From: an uncultured Erysipelotrichaceae bacterium
GTDB taxonomy: Bacteria > Bacillota_I > Bacilli_A > Erysipelotrichales > Erysipelotrichaceae
Direction: 5' to 3'
DNA length: 42,682 nt
NCBI GenBank assembly: GCA_947036815.1
Contig: CAMQRS010000012.1
Coordinates: 1 to 42,682 of the forward strand
Shown: positions 3,284-27,764 of the stretch, one piece after another
How the letters are laid out: every line of letters starts with the position of its first letter
How positions within the stretch are numbered: position 1 is the first letter of the stretch
Notes under the pieces: model-generated
Told to the model about the DNA's origin: nothing
Database searches by the model: none
Seen by the model: only the letters and a program-made list of their open reading frames with translations
Position numbers and translations under genes: made by a program

Positions 3284-4117
3284 TTATTTCTCCTTTACCT
3301 CTAATATTATGTCTGCAATATGCTTAGGCGCTCTCATTTTTAAAGGTGGAGGCGTCATATGACTTGGTGCAATTTCTACATCCAAGAAAGGTTTCGTGTT
3401 CTTAGGAATCCATAATTGTGCATCCTCAAAGGTATGTTTCTTCAATGGATATACATCATCTTTTCGATATATTACTGGTTTAAATGGGGGATAAAAAACC
3501 CAGGTTAAATCATATCCAATATAATCACTATGTTTATTACAATCACTATAAAAGCGAGAGAATCTAATAAATAGTTTTTTCAATAAGTATGGATTCATTC
3601 TTAAATTTTCAAATAAGACAATAAAAAAAGCAAAAATATACGCAATAAAACGACAAGGTATATCTATCCATTTTTTATCACTTACGTAATCTACAACAAA
3701 TATATCAACAAAAATACCATCTCCATCTTTGCATTTATTCGCAAGTAATGAATTCACTTCTCTTAAATAGGTACCTTTTCTTCTTATTTTCATCGCAGGG
3801 ATTAATACATTATATTCTTTATGTGTATCAATGCATTGATAATAATATTTATCATTTGGCATTTCTTCTTTTAATACCTCTAATAATTTATTATAATCTT
3901 CTCTTCTCATCGATATATCTGCATCGTCATCCCAAGGAATAAATCCGTTGTGACGAACTGCACCTAAACATGTTCCTGCCGTTAAATAATAGTCAATGCC
4001 GTGTTTTTCACACAACGCATCGATATCTTTCAACATTTCTAATAATACTTTATGTACATCATGTACATAAACTTTACTTCCATCTTCGTTTGTTTTTAAT
4101 AAATATTTATCATTCAT
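3284..4117 (-). CDS. LicD family phosphotransferase
   Basis: A 277-residue cytoplasmic protein with the LicD signature in its first third: HDVHKVLLEMLKDIDALCEKH, then YYLTAGTCLGAVRHNGFIPW and DDDADISM, the nucleotidyltransferase-fold metal-binding segment. Family members transfer phosphocholine or other phosphodiester groups to teichoic acids or surface glycans. A hydrophobic patch near residues 155-170 could be a membrane-association helix. It is the first gene of an operon with the amidase-like protein (1-nt gap) and ABC-F, which fits cell-envelope decoration. No licA/licC choline genes are in the window, so the donor and acceptor are unknown. SD GGGTGA lies 5-6 nt before the ATG. Confidence 0.85.
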   Translation of the reverse strand: MNDKYLLKTNEDGSKVYVHDVHKVLLEMLKDIDALCEKHGIDYYLTAGTCLGAVRHNGFIPWDDDADISMRREDYNKLLEVLKEEMPNDKYYYQCIDTHKEYNVLIPAMKIRRKGTYLREVNSLLANKCKDGDGIFVDIFVVDYVSDKKWIDIPCRFIAYIFAFFIVLFENLRMNPYLLKKLFIRFSRFYSDCNKHSDYIGYDLTWVFYPPFKPVIYRKDDVYPLKKHTFEDAQLWIPKNTKPFLDVEIAPSHMTPPPLKMRAPKHIADIILEVKEK

Positions 4118-4134
4118 AATATCACCCAGTATAA

Positions 4135-4163: not shown

Positions 4164-4680
4164 TCTTTCATTTTGATTTCCTGCCACCTTTATCATATAT
4201 TAATAAAAATAGCACATATGATAATTATTTCAAATATATTTTATTATTAATGAATCAATATCCTATTAAAATAATTCACTAATGGGATTCCTTTATTTCC
4301 ATTTCTACTACAGTGTAAAATAGGTATGAAATGCAGTTATCCTAATTTTGAAAGATGCCATTAAATTAATCATGAAAAATAATCGTAGTTCCTCCAAATC
4401 CCATCTACATTTGTATTTTACAATACGATATACAAAGTAACCCTTGGAAGAAGTACATTTTGATATTGTGCAATTACATACAGCAAAACTTGTGAGCATA
4501 ATATAAATATCAGAATTTTTAAATTTAAATTTAAGAAACAATTATCTGTTACACACCGATTAGTAATACAAGAATATCGTTGACAATACACTAAAAGAGT
4601 TCTTCTTGAGTACATTTATGCAAAAACTTTTACTAGTTAGACTATGATGTAAAGTCTAAAGACAGACTTGAAATTTAGTG
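4164..4680. other. Non-coding stretch with no supported gene
   Basis: About 520 bp between the licD promoter and the terminator of the next gene. Two minus-strand ORFs of 65-77 codons exist (4308-4541 and 4418-4615), but they overlap in different frames, lack ribosome binding sites and have unconvincing Cys/Tyr-rich compositions. A short perfect hairpin AAGTCT/AGACTT sits at about 4652-4669. I see no transposase, tRNA or riboswitch signature. It may be degraded DNA. Confidence 0.5.
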
Positions 4681-24557: not shown

Positions 24558-24755
24558 TAGATTACCTCCATGTACATACTTTATTAAGTATAACTAAACA
24601 CGATTTTTTTAACAACCTTTTTATTCGATTTTAAGCAATTTACAATTATCTATGTTTCTTTTATTTCAGTTCTATGTTATTCATAGAAAAGCACCTATAA
24701 TTATGATATAAAACCATTCATAACTCTTACAAAAACCATATCATCGTATAAAATA

Positions 24756-24764
24756 TGGTACAAT
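24756..24764 (+). promoter_or_regulatory. Extended -10 promoter for the regulator cassette
   Basis: The sequence TGGTACAAT fits an extended -10 element (TGN followed by TACAAT, one mismatch to TATAAT). No good -35 lies 17 bp upstream. The transcript would carry an ~70-nt leader before the first regulator. Confidence 0.5.
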
Positions 24765-24843
24765 GACCTTATCAAATTAAATCAACATTTAATAAACAAT
24801 TATATTTAAAAAGAAAGGTGCACTTAGTGTGTAGGGTGAACAT

Positions 24844-26058
24844 ATGAATCATTTCAACAATAAATTTATAGGGATATGCTTAAAAAACTACAGAAATACA
24901 ATAGGACTAAACCAAGATGTATTCGTATCAGATATATGTACTCTATATACATTATCTAGAATCGAGAGAGGACTAACTGAATATTCCTTTACTCTCTTAA
25001 AATTACTGAACCATTATCAGATGCATTTAAATTATTTATTTGATTTCACAATACTAGAAATCGAATATAAAAACCTATTAGAACAAATCACCTATGGAAA
25101 CTCGAAGGAAATAGAAGCCTGTGTGTTAAAGATTTTAGAAATAACCAACGCTAATAAATCACATTTGATAATGTATCAATATCACAAATATGCTTGTCAC
25201 TTAAAGGCTCACTTTATAGACAATAAAGCTATCATCTTTGATAAACATACATTTAATACAATGTGTTTTTTATCGAATGAAATGTATATCGTACATTTTC
25301 ATATTACTTTAGAGAATGCATTTAAACATGCATCAGTTATGCATTTTAAACCGTTGTATCTGTTAATGTATCGTGACGATGTGCACCATATTATGATAGA
25401 TATCTACTCTTGTTTATATTACCAAAGTCAAGAATTGTTTCTACAATCACATGACATTAGTTCATTTCATAAATTAGATATAAACGATAACTCATATCAT
25501 TTACATCATGTACGATATAGAATTATAGATGCGATTTCATATGCTACTTATGAACCCGCACGTTCCATATGTGAATTCAATGAAATCATAGAGGATGTTA
25601 CTACTTACAAGCAAGATGAAATGTATACGTTCCTATGTTATTTGGGTCAAGTAGCAACTTATATAAAAATCAAAAAATATGAAGAAGCACTTAGCGTCAT
25701 TCTAAATCATTTAATTCACTTTCACGAACTAAAAGCATATGTATACCCATATGGAGTGTTATTAACTATGATATTAGACGTTGAGATGGACGAGCGTTTA
25801 TTAGAAAAAACAGACCACAAATTAATCACACGAATTCAAAGTTTATATGTACAGCATAACCGCCCTATTTCAACACCGAGTAAATTTGGATATTTAAATG
25901 GTAAAGTATTATTTTTATGTAAATACTTTAACGAAAATAGCTCACTAATATTATTACTTTATGCATATGCAAGAATTTTAAATCGTAAAACAAAACTCAA
26001 AAGACAATATGTTAGATTTGAGCTCACAATAAAAGATGTGATTAGGAGATCATTATGA
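24844..26058 (+). CDS. XRE-type HTH/TPR-like regulator, probable RRNPP peptide receptor
   Basis: A 404-residue protein. Residues ~8-66 form an XRE helix-turn-helix: LKNYRNTIGLNQDVF, then CTLYTLSRIERGLTEYSF as the recognition helix and LLKLLNHYQMHLNYLFD. The remainder is all-helical with degenerate TPR-like pairs (e.g. YTFLCYLGQVATYIKIKKYE followed by EALSVILNHLI). HTH plus TPR at this length is the plan of RRNPP regulators (PlcR, NprR, Rgg, ComR), which bind an imported signalling peptide and switch target promoters. SD AGGGTG precedes the ATG. The stop overlaps the next ATG (ATGA). It is plus-strand among minus-strand neighbours and shares a transcript direction with a small peptide gene. 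Identification is by architecture, not close similarity. Confidence 0.72.
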   Translation: MNHFNNKFIGICLKNYRNTIGLNQDVFVSDICTLYTLSRIERGLTEYSFTLLKLLNHYQMHLNYLFDFTILEIEYKNLLEQITYGNSKEIEACVLKILEITNANKSHLIMYQYHKYACHLKAHFIDNKAIIFDKHTFNTMCFLSNEMYIVHFHITLENAFKHASVMHFKPLYLLMYRDDVHHIMIDIYSCLYYQSQELFLQSHDISSFHKLDINDNSYHLHHVRYRIIDAISYATYEPARSICEFNEIIEDVTTYKQDEMYTFLCYLGQVATYIKIKKYEEALSVILNHLIHFHELKAYVYPYGVLLTMILDVEMDERLLEKTDHKLITRIQSLYVQHNRPISTPSKFGYLNGKVLFLCKYFNENSSLILLLYAYARILNRKTKLKRQYVRFELTIKDVIRRSL

Positions 26059-27323
26059 TATGTAACATCAGAAGAGAAGACAAAATCATTATATGTGTCT
26101 TTATTGAATACTATCGTGTACAAAAAGAAATAACGGATGATAGATTCAAAATAGCCAACTTTATTATTGACGATTATGATGACTATATTTGTAGCCCTTC
26201 TTATTATGTAAGAATTAGAAGTAAGTCGTTTATCGCACTTGATGATATGTATCTTGGATTCCTAGATAATTTAAGTATGAAGTATTCATATGATAAAGAA
26301 TTAAGTAACATTATAAATAAGTTAAATATACAACTTTTAGACAACGTCGAATACAATCGTTCTGAAAAAATAGCGAGTACACTAACTAAAGCTATGAAAG
26401 TGTTAAACAGGATAGATAATACTATCATTTATCACGAAATTAGTGAAATGTATTTATTAATTCACGATTATTACATATTAAATGAATACCACCAAGATTT
26501 AATTGATAAGTATATATCCTTGTTAGATGTAGTCCCAGCACAATTAAAACCTATTATTGTAACTATCGCCTATCAATATTATAGTAGAGAAAATATTAAA
26601 ATAGAATACTCTTTAGAAATCATTAAACTGTCTGAACAGTATAATGATAATCGAGTTATTTTTAGATATATTAAAGGAGTGTATTTAATTCGTTGCGATA
26701 AATTTATAAACGCTTACGATGAATGCAAGATGCTACAAATGCTTTGTGAAAGATCGAATAATAACTATTATCTAGCAAAGACTTATAATTTATTGGCTTT
26801 ATTGGGTCTTAAAAAGAATAGTAATGAAAGTATCCCCTACTTAGAGAAGGCTCTTGACTGTTATCCAAAAGGAACAATTAACGAGGATACAAAAGCTTTT
26901 ATGATGAATATCATCATCCTATTATTTGAAGAAGGAAACTACAAAAAATGCATAGAAAATTGTAAGTTAGCAATCTCGATGGATGAAGCAATTATTAACT
27001 ATATTTCTCCATACTTTATTGGTTGTTTTATACTATATGAAGCTTCAGAAAGCGAAATGAATTTCACATTACATCTTATTAATACTCATTTGCCGTTATG
27101 CTCGCCTTACTTCAAATGTATAAACGACCTTTTAACTCAAATTTTATTAGATCCTTCTTATGAAAAATTATTCCCTTTGTTGCATATTCTTATCAAAAAT
27201 CATAAAAACATATTGGAAATCAATAATAATTTTACCGATATTATTAAGTTATCTTTATATTCAATTTTAGAAACTCCAAACAACAGAAAGTTATATAATA
27301 CATTCATTGAAACATTTACATAA
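26055..27323 (+). CDS. Tandem HTH/TPR-like regulator paralogue with divergent HTH
   Basis: A 422-residue, all-helical protein. Its first ~75 residues align with the upstream regulator's HTH (FIEYYRVQKEITDDRF; ICSPSYYVRIRSKSF; YLGFLDNLSMKYSYD) but with a small insertion, and the SRIERG-type recognition helix has become YVRIRSKS. The next ~65 residues also align (YNRSEKIASTLTKAMKV against YGNSKEIEACVLKILEI). The C-terminal two-thirds have clear TPR pairs: AKTYNLLALLGLKKNSNESI, MMNIIILLFEEGNYKKCIENC. It is translationally coupled by a 4-nt overlap, with SD AGGAG 8 nt before the ATG. It may form a heterodimer with, or antagonise, the first regulator. DNA binding by this copy is uncertain. Confidence 0.65.
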   Translation: MICNIRREDKIIICVFIEYYRVQKEITDDRFKIANFIIDDYDDYICSPSYYVRIRSKSFIALDDMYLGFLDNLSMKYSYDKELSNIINKLNIQLLDNVEYNRSEKIASTLTKAMKVLNRIDNTIIYHEISEMYLLIHDYYILNEYHQDLIDKYISLLDVVPAQLKPIIVTIAYQYYSRENIKIEYSLEIIKLSEQYNDNRVIFRYIKGVYLIRCDKFINAYDECKMLQMLCERSNNNYYLAKTYNLLALLGLKKNSNESIPYLEKALDCYPKGTINEDTKAFMMNIIILLFEEGNYKKCIENCKLAISMDEAIINYISPYFIGCFILYEASESEMNFTLHLINTHLPLCSPYFKCINDLLTQILLDPSYEKLFPLLHILIKNHKNILEINNNFTDIIKLSLYSILETPNNRKLYNTFIETFT

Positions 27324-27385
27324 CAAATGTCTAATTCTAATTTAAAAAATCGATAACGATATTCTTTTGATAACATATGAATAAA

Positions 27386-27414
27386 TACAATAAATGTAAT
27401 GTTTAAGGTATTAT
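27386..27414 (+). promoter_or_regulatory. Candidate activator-dependent promoter of the peptide gene
   Basis: TATTAT (27409-27414) would serve as -10. The element 17 bp upstream is TACAAT (27386-27391), a poor -35, as often seen at activator-controlled promoters. An imperfect palindrome TATGT-N8-ACATA (27414-27431) overlaps the predicted start region just before the SD and is a possible operator. Confidence 0.35.
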
Positions 27415-27443
27415 ATGTAAGCGTACACATAGGAGGAAGAGAT

Positions 27444-27572
27444 ATGAAAAAAATAATAGGGATAGTATTAGTATTAACAGTACTAATCGGTACAGGAGTA
27501 GGGGTCAGCGCAAGCGATTCACAACCAACACCGCAATTTTGTTCATCGCCAGGTTGTTGGGTAATTGCATAA
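27444..27572 (+). CDS. Small secreted peptide, candidate quorum-sensing pheromone precursor
   Basis: A 42-codon ORF with a perfect AGGAGG SD 7 nt before its ATG. The translation has a classic signal sequence (MKKIIGIVLVLTVLIGTG, then VGVSA) and a predicted cleavage after VSA, leaving SDSQPTPQFCSSPGCWVIA. Two Cys five apart and a hydrophobic C-terminus (CWVIA) stand out. It lies 120 nt downstream of two HTH/TPR regulators on the same strand and ends in a strong terminator, the layout of PapR, NprX or Phr signalling peptides. The active form might be a C-terminal fragment, linear or disulfide/thiolactone-constrained. It could instead be a small bacteriocin-like peptide, but no immunity or exporter gene is present. 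Confidence 0.75.
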   Translation: MKKIIGIVLVLTVLIGTGVGVSASDSQPTPQFCSSPGCWVIA

Positions 27573-27730
27573 TATTTAGTAGTTTCTAAGGCTAAAGTAA
27601 CACAGCAAGACAATGAGTGTCAATTGCGGGTTGCTTACCAGTTTTCTGTTGGTAGTTGATATATCGTCACAAATGTAGTCAATTAAAACGGAAACGGGGG
27701 GAAGCCAACCATCAAGCATATTTACCAAAG

Positions 27731-27764
27731 AAAAAGATACACATTGCTTGTGTATCTTTTTTTT
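27731..27764 (+). terminator. Strong terminator of the peptide cassette, shared with rpiA
   Basis: AAGATACACA (27734-27743) pairs with TGTGTATCTT (27749-27758), followed by a T-run on the plus strand. A run of A before the stem gives a U-tract on the minus strand, so it can also end the convergent rpiA operon that stops at 27782. Confidence 0.93.

Follow-up and report, generated by a model that had tools for sequence, protein, structure and literature searches.

A putative RRNPP-type signalling cassette with two regulators and a cysteine-paired secreted peptide in an uncultured Erysipelotrichaceae bacterium

Do two regulator genes and a small secreted-peptide gene, arranged as one plus-strand unit in the genome of an uncultured Erysipelotrichaceae bacterium, form a peptide quorum-sensing system, and of which kind would it be? 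The unit lies on contig CAMQRS010000012.1 (assembly GCA_947036815.1), of which we analysed positions 1 to 42,682 (the window), and its genes are here called A, B and the peptide gene (Table 1). A preliminary description based on the sequence had proposed a quorum-sensing cassette with two receptors for one peptide, and had placed the three genes, the ATGA overlap and the 42-codon peptide gene with its Shine-Dalgarno (SD) sequence at coordinates that proved exact. Our results suggest that the cassette is probably a chromosomal quorum-sensing-type RRNPP/RRNPPA system of an undescribed subfamily in the bacterial family of Holdemania, with two receptors and possibly a cyclised pheromone.

A divergent family of regulators

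The first question was whether A and B are related to each other and to other regulators. BLASTP detected no similarity between them, so that their kinship was visible through a family profile alone. Single-sequence searches with either protein returned nothing in genome contigs, viral contigs or plasmids; within the bacterial family they returned no relative of A and weak matches of B in five genomes, which seeded a first profile. The bacterial family of Holdemania was represented by 273 genomes from 60 genera; profile searches found members of this regulator family in 59 of these genomes and in 32 of the genera, and a wider sample of the order added one genome with a member outside the bacterial family. 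To avoid circularity, the profile was rebuilt from 19 members excluding both A and B. It recovered B (E = 1.8e-30) and A (E = 1.9e-6, residues 4-399), while none of about 600 shuffled sequences and no other open reading frame (ORF) of the window matched at E ≤ 1. These results indicate, at the level of sequence, that A and B are both members of the family, A being the more divergent. The genome holds two members only, both in the cassette. A grouping of A with B was not rejected (approximately unbiased test, p-AU 0.57), and both proteins sit on long branches in the tree, so that the pair may or may not stem from a recent tandem duplication in place.

Family members share an N-terminal domain with the motif ICSxxTLxRIExG. 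A helix-turn-helix (HTH) had been claimed for the first protein; this holds for A but is not confined to it, since a profile of the HTH alone, built without A and B, scored 25.5 bits against A and 27.2 bits against B. The recognition helix of B departs from the consensus (SYYVRIRSK), whereas A keeps the motif (Table 1). When a profile of 14 HTH sequences, with A included and B excluded, was compared with 177,635 distinct PDB sequences, the best match was PlcR (E = 1.4e-4); other XRE-type proteins ranked next, and ComR entries matched weakly (E-values of 0.14 and 1). Additionally, PrgX of pCF10 aligned over the HTH in a single-sequence comparison (P = 0.0095, compared to 0.38-0.85 for four other pCF10 proteins).

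The tetratricopeptide repeat (TPR) superhelix expected by the preliminary description found support in B. This protein matched Pfam TPR_1 at E = 5e-4, under the Pfam cut-off, and the C-terminal half of the family profile matched designed and natural TPR proteins. A structural model of B, built from a five-sequence alignment, was confident for residues 81-310 only and showed helical repeats there. Among the 50 best PDB matches listed by Foldseek for this model, Rap-Phi3T, RapI and NprR had the highest query TM-scores and PlcR-PapR7 was also present, all E-values being above 0.001 and thus not significant. The modelling of A failed, so that its presumed C-terminal TPR region rests on the full-length family match (E = 1.9e-6).

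Two further groups of sequences were seen during these searches. Split regulators of the family, in two overlapping or abutting frames, occur at L009:5560-6817, L065:3639-4855 and L072:3930-5146 and may reflect a frameshift, an assembly error or a real two-part gene. Lower-scoring HTH regulators with the motif GICTVSYLSKIExGK (L117, L118, L119 and L120) were recovered by the same profiles with no recognisable peptide gene adjoining, and are possibly orphan regulators of the same superfamily.

The secreted peptide and its linkage to the regulators

The product of the third gene has a hydrophobic leader and, in the window, ends in the tail FCSSPGCWVIA. To ask whether such genes accompany the regulators elsewhere, we counted micro-ORFs with an SD, a basic N-terminus and a hydrophobic core as secreted. 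Of 64 family genes, 19 had a secreted micro-ORF in the 700 nt after them, compared to 5 of the 262 other genes of these loci (P = 6e-11), and two of these five control matches were peptides themselves adjoining a family regulator. Within 300 nt, among genes with free downstream space, one was found after 11 of 24 core members, 1 of 10 low-scoring members and 1 of 90 control genes (P = 4e-8 for core members against controls). These counts take orthologs separately, so that the eleven include four Holdemania-type orthologs, as well as two paralogs. A small secreted ORF near homologous regulators, on which the preliminary description had made its proposal depend, is therefore far commoner than near other genes.

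The tails of these peptides have a common feature. At least two cysteines were present in all eleven and a C-x4-C spacing in nine, the frequent form being C-x-x-P-[D/E/G]-C. The Holdemania-type tails read CTAPDCMFG, CSSPDCMWQ, CSSPDCMFQ and CTSPDCMFQ, and further tails among the eleven were RCGYPECDFGSY, RCSFPECGFGG and YCYGSDCVSLN. Three more tails fall outside the eleven: ICPGPGCDPS (L078), whose gene comes after a low-scoring member, and PCDSPECLDID (L053) and PCNKPGCNEA (L069), both encoded upstream of a regulator. Of 69 family genes, 10 were flanked by a small ORF of the strict CxxP[DEG]C form; of 344 control genes none was, when these same ORFs are not counted again. In all, peptide linkage with the shared motif was seen in at least six genera.

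A DNA pattern search for SD-MKK-CxxP[DEG]C over the 273 genomes gave four matches, of which the micro-ORFs were that of the window and one adjoining a family regulator in genome G234; other family peptides are invisible to this pattern because of its spacing limits. No such ORF was found in viral contigs. In Holdemania, the proportion of nonsynonymous differences in the tail (pN 0.12-0.18) was well below that of synonymous ones (pS 0.50-0.65), which indicates that the tail is under purifying selection as a protein.

A second clade of regulators (L008, L009, L011, L046, L047 and L049) is accompanied by secreted peptides without the cysteine motif, for example those ending in SRIHIKV and SSGFGFVIW. 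Just upstream of regulators of this clade, at L010, L011 and L008, stands a gene whose product starts with CxxC...H..S(D/E)T and looks CpXC-like by eye.

The two receptors proposed for the window cassette have counterparts, since receptors in tandem or in clusters were seen in two other genera as well. In L008 (genome G200), two tandem regulators are followed by two near-identical peptides. In L078 and L083, from one genus, there are three regulators each, and one of them, in L078, has a peptide. The L008 micro-ORFs are on the minus strand (4213-4380 and 3997-4119), with the tails SPSRIHIKV and SHSRIHIKV, and appear to be duplicated pro-peptides. Both the L078 (1170-6027) and the L083 cluster have two regulators on one strand and one divergent; after the divergent regulator of L078 come the CPGPGC peptide and a series of genes for secreted or membrane proteins, these without a confident Pfam match.

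Layout, promoter regions and 3' untranslated region

How the three genes might be expressed together was assessed from their layout (Table 1). The ATGA overlap and the AGGAG before the B start make it probable that translation of B is coupled to that of A. The peptide gene follows B after 120 nt, and its SD sequence and upstream -10-like TATTAT suggest from their position that it may have a promoter of its own. A longer alternative peptide ORF of 57 codons, starting at an upstream ATG, lacks an SD.

Table 1. Positions of the cassette features in the window
Feature	Position	Strand	Description
Gene A	24844-26058	+	Protein of 404 aa, first receptor/regulator; XRE-type HTH at the N-terminus, family motif intact (ICTLYTLSRIERG); helical C-terminal region, presumably TPR
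Gene B	26055-27323	+	Protein of 422 aa, second receptor/regulator; TPR repeats; recognition-helix motif of the HTH region altered (ICSPSYYVRIRSK)
A/B overlap ATGA	26055-26058	+	AGGAG just 5' of the B start
Candidate pro-pheromone gene	27444-27572	+	42 codons from ATG; product MKKIIGIVLVLTVLIGTGVGVSA / SDSQPTPQFCSSPGCWVIA, the slash marking the signal-peptidase site predicted by the VSA rule
SD AGGAGG of the peptide gene	27432-27437	+	Six bases 5' of the ATG
C-S-S-P-G-C motif	27540-27557	+	Codons 33-38 of the peptide gene; common to peptides adjoining other family regulators
Intergenic region 5' of A	24558-24843	+	Presumed promoter; inverted repeat TTCTATGTTATTCATAGAA at 24670-24688; PlcR-box-like site TATAAAACCATTCATA at 24707-24722, one mismatch
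Intergenic region 5' of the peptide gene	27324-27443	+	-10-like TATTAT at about 27409-27414; PlcR-box-like site TATGTAAGCGTACACA at 27414-27429, one mismatch
3' untranslated region of the peptide transcript	27573-27727	+	155 nt; z = -1.81, perhaps structured; occurs once in the genome; no Rfam family matched
Intrinsic terminator	about 27728-27764	+	16-bp stem and U-run, -17.9 kcal/mol

The strong terminator said to close the cassette is indeed there at 27728-27764, having escaped a consensus scanner, but it does not follow the peptide gene directly: it lies 155 nt past the stop codon, so the transcript would have a long 3' untranslated region (UTR). Its symmetry would allow the terminator to act as well for the rpiA-like gene that converges on it from the minus strand. 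This gene and one for a DUF368-like membrane protein, as read from their translations, flank the cassette on the opposite strand. Since every other plus-strand ORF of at least 80 aa in the window overlaps minus-strand ORFs wholly or partly, A, B and the peptide gene are its only plus-strand unit, as had been stated before.

The UTR of the window matched no Rfam family, was unique in the genome and showed a mild folding excess. In four Holdemania-type loci the UTR is 206-250 nt long. No sequence similarity was found between it and the UTR of the window. In three Holdemania species, about 200 nt after the peptide stop were 97% and 87% identical (L108:5600-5800, also L107 and L109), with an invariant run of 51 nt and 88-93% invariant columns compared to about 50% in the regulator gene; apart from one conserved coding gene, this was the best-conserved stretch, neighbouring coding genes having diverged far more. 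It is single copy, matched no Rfam family and, its ORF being broken in H. massiliensis, is non-coding. A 10-bp helix was intact in all four Holdemania-type sequences, with two double and three single changes, and folding of single sequences showed no excess (z = -0.83 and +0.31). These results point to the Holdemania UTR, on the basis of four sequences, as a possible new small RNA or dual-function transcript.

Each of the two promoter regions contains a PlcR-box-like site with one mismatch. The chance of finding both was 0.0018, and that of the site upstream of A alone 0.05, each calculated post hoc. No PlcR box was found in 18 related loci, so these sites are a weak lead only.

We also considered where the cassette came from. 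Neither an integrase nor a tRNA, as expected of a mobile island, was found near it, and its GC content (A 0.284, B 0.266) is close to that of the window (0.311); a mobile island was therefore set aside, as these data show no sign of recent transfer. A phage origin with AimR-like communication was set aside for want of relatives in viral contigs or plasmids and of any PHROG match, and a defence origin likewise for want of a PHROG match.

Relation to known systems and weighing of the readings

The comparison with known systems suggests that the cassette family is RRNPP-like by architecture and linkage but is not PlcR, Rap, Rgg or ComR proper. Like PlcR-PapR of the Bacillus cereus group, it combines an XRE HTH and TPR receptor with a following gene for a small secreted pro-peptide, and PlcR is the best match of the family HTH among solved structures. 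It differs in having two receptors, in protein length, which exceeds that of the 293-residue PlcR chain by about 120 residues, and in paired cysteines in the peptide. PlcR-PapR proper was rejected since only the HTH matches, whole-protein identity being undetectable, and no PlcR box is common to the relatives. With Rap-Phr and NprR-NprX of Bacillus the family shares a size of about 360-420 residues, a TPR groove and a downstream secreted pro-peptide, in line with the TM-scores of the B model; however, Rap has no HTH, whereas the family has one at the N-terminus. Rap-Phr proper was rejected, as the Phr_nterm model (TIGR04429) matched the peptide at E = 0.32 and 11.6 bits against a cut-off of 25 and no Rap model matched. 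ComR-ComS and Rgg-SHP of streptococci and PrgX-cCF10 of Enterococcus likewise pair an HTH-TPR receptor with a short pro-peptide. To our knowledge, the pheromones of these three systems have no conserved Cys-x4-Cys. Rgg-SHP and ComR-ComS proper were rejected because no Rgg, ComR or SHP family matched in Pfam or NCBIfam. Cyclic cysteine peptide signals exist as the thiolactone autoinducing peptides of Agr-type systems, which the window peptide would resemble if its ring, a guess, is real; unlike Agr, the cassette has no AgrB- or AgrC-like genes, and its receptor would be a cytosolic HTH/TPR protein.

The candidate clusters of RRNPP_detector (PMC10075063) and the RRNPPA trees (PMC9765709, PMC12700828) are defined by a TPR receptor of 250-500 aa adjoining a Sec-exported propeptide of 10-100 aa, and the window cassette has the same architecture. 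Their main texts make no mention of Erysipelotrichaceae, Holdemania, cysteine or disulfide; supplements and figures lay outside this search, and an unnamed cluster in them could overlap with the family. A literature search returned no relevant description of an RRNPP system with a cysteine pheromone in this bacterial family, and no paper describing the cassette was found in the searchable texts, in agreement with the preliminary description, which had not recognised it as a known system.

In the mechanism that we propose, the 42-residue pro-peptide would be exported via Sec and then trimmed, and the active signal would be the C-terminal stretch around CSSPGC (FCSSPGCWVIA or a part of it), probably held in a small ring by the paired cysteines. 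The signal would be re-imported, most likely by the Opp importer; one OppA-type binding protein (SBP_bac_5) is encoded in the genome. Inside the cell it would bind the TPR groove of A, B or both and alter DNA binding, thereby changing transcription of the peptide gene and other targets. As A and B appear translationally coupled, they probably act together. With the recognition-helix motif kept, A would be the main DNA-binding subunit, and B, in which it is changed, would either sense the peptide or be a partner whose DNA specificity has shifted; coupling and the altered HTH of B together suggest a partnership in which A binds DNA and B senses.

Several observations weigh against the quorum-sensing reading. 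No recognisable peptide was found near 13 of the 24 core and 9 of the 10 low-scoring members. Neither an operator common to peptide promoters across the family nor a repeat or operator shared by the promoter regions of A and the peptide gene was found beyond chance. A had no match in Pfam or NCBIfam, its model reached a pLDDT (predicted local distance difference test) of 36, and neither A nor B had an ortholog in any other genome, the genus of the host having a single species. A ring or disulfide in the peptide is conjecture, and its host probably lives anaerobically.

The same data can be read in other ways. The micro-ORF might encode an effector, either bacteriocin-like or a secreted peptide acting on the host, that A and B control without re-uptake while their TPR domains sense another thing. 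Secreted cysteine-paired peptides are also typical of bacteriocins, and genes for further secreted proteins, membrane proteins or ABC transporters come after the peptide or its regulator at L056, L063, L069 and L078. We nevertheless consider an effector unlikely: no immunity or dedicated export gene adjoins the window peptide, its strict pairing with TPR-type regulators and the short tails resemble RRNPP pro-peptides, and regulator and peptide recur together without another constant partner. That A and B are orphan XRE/TPR regulators of another ligand, and the peptide gene an unrelated neighbour, is quite improbable: the linkage greatly exceeds that of control genes and, with a motif in common, extends to at least six genera. 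In favour of this reading, many lower-scoring members have no adjoining peptide. For such orphans one can also point to RstA of C. difficile, an RRNPP-like regulator for which we know of no peptide gene.

A dual-function transcript, in which the third gene acts mainly as a regulatory RNA and the peptide is secondary, has a model in RNAIII of S. aureus, which carries hld. It would account for the long UTRs before the terminator in the window and in the four Holdemania-type loci, and for the strong conservation of a single-copy, non-coding Holdemania UTR with its intact helix. We hold it to be very improbable, however, as the UTR of the window is dissimilar to that of Holdemania and its z-score is modest, the Holdemania UTR has no folding excess and owes its covariation to four sequences, and control genes, too, are often without a terminator near the stop. 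The quorum-sensing reading can also be drawn more narrowly, as an RRNPP subfamily with C-x2-P-x-C ring pheromones, a coupled pair of unlike receptors, one binding DNA and one sensing, and a peptide mRNA that is also a regulatory RNA through its 3' UTR; this full combination is rather doubtful.

Much work has been done on peptide quorum sensing in Bacilli and in some Clostridia, and Erysipelotrichaceae are common gut bacteria. We found nothing comparable for Erysipelotrichaceae in searchable papers. Beyond the preliminary description, the analysis adds the paired-cysteine motif of the peptides, the wider regulator family and the conserved 3' UTR. With receptors linked to pro-peptides whose tails have a recognisable motif, the family offers synthetic peptides for direct testing, in Holdemania itself or in a heterologous reporter. 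If the quorum-sensing reading is true, the known RRNPP repertoire would gain both an operon with two receptors and, for a cytosolic TPR receptor, a pheromone with paired cysteines.

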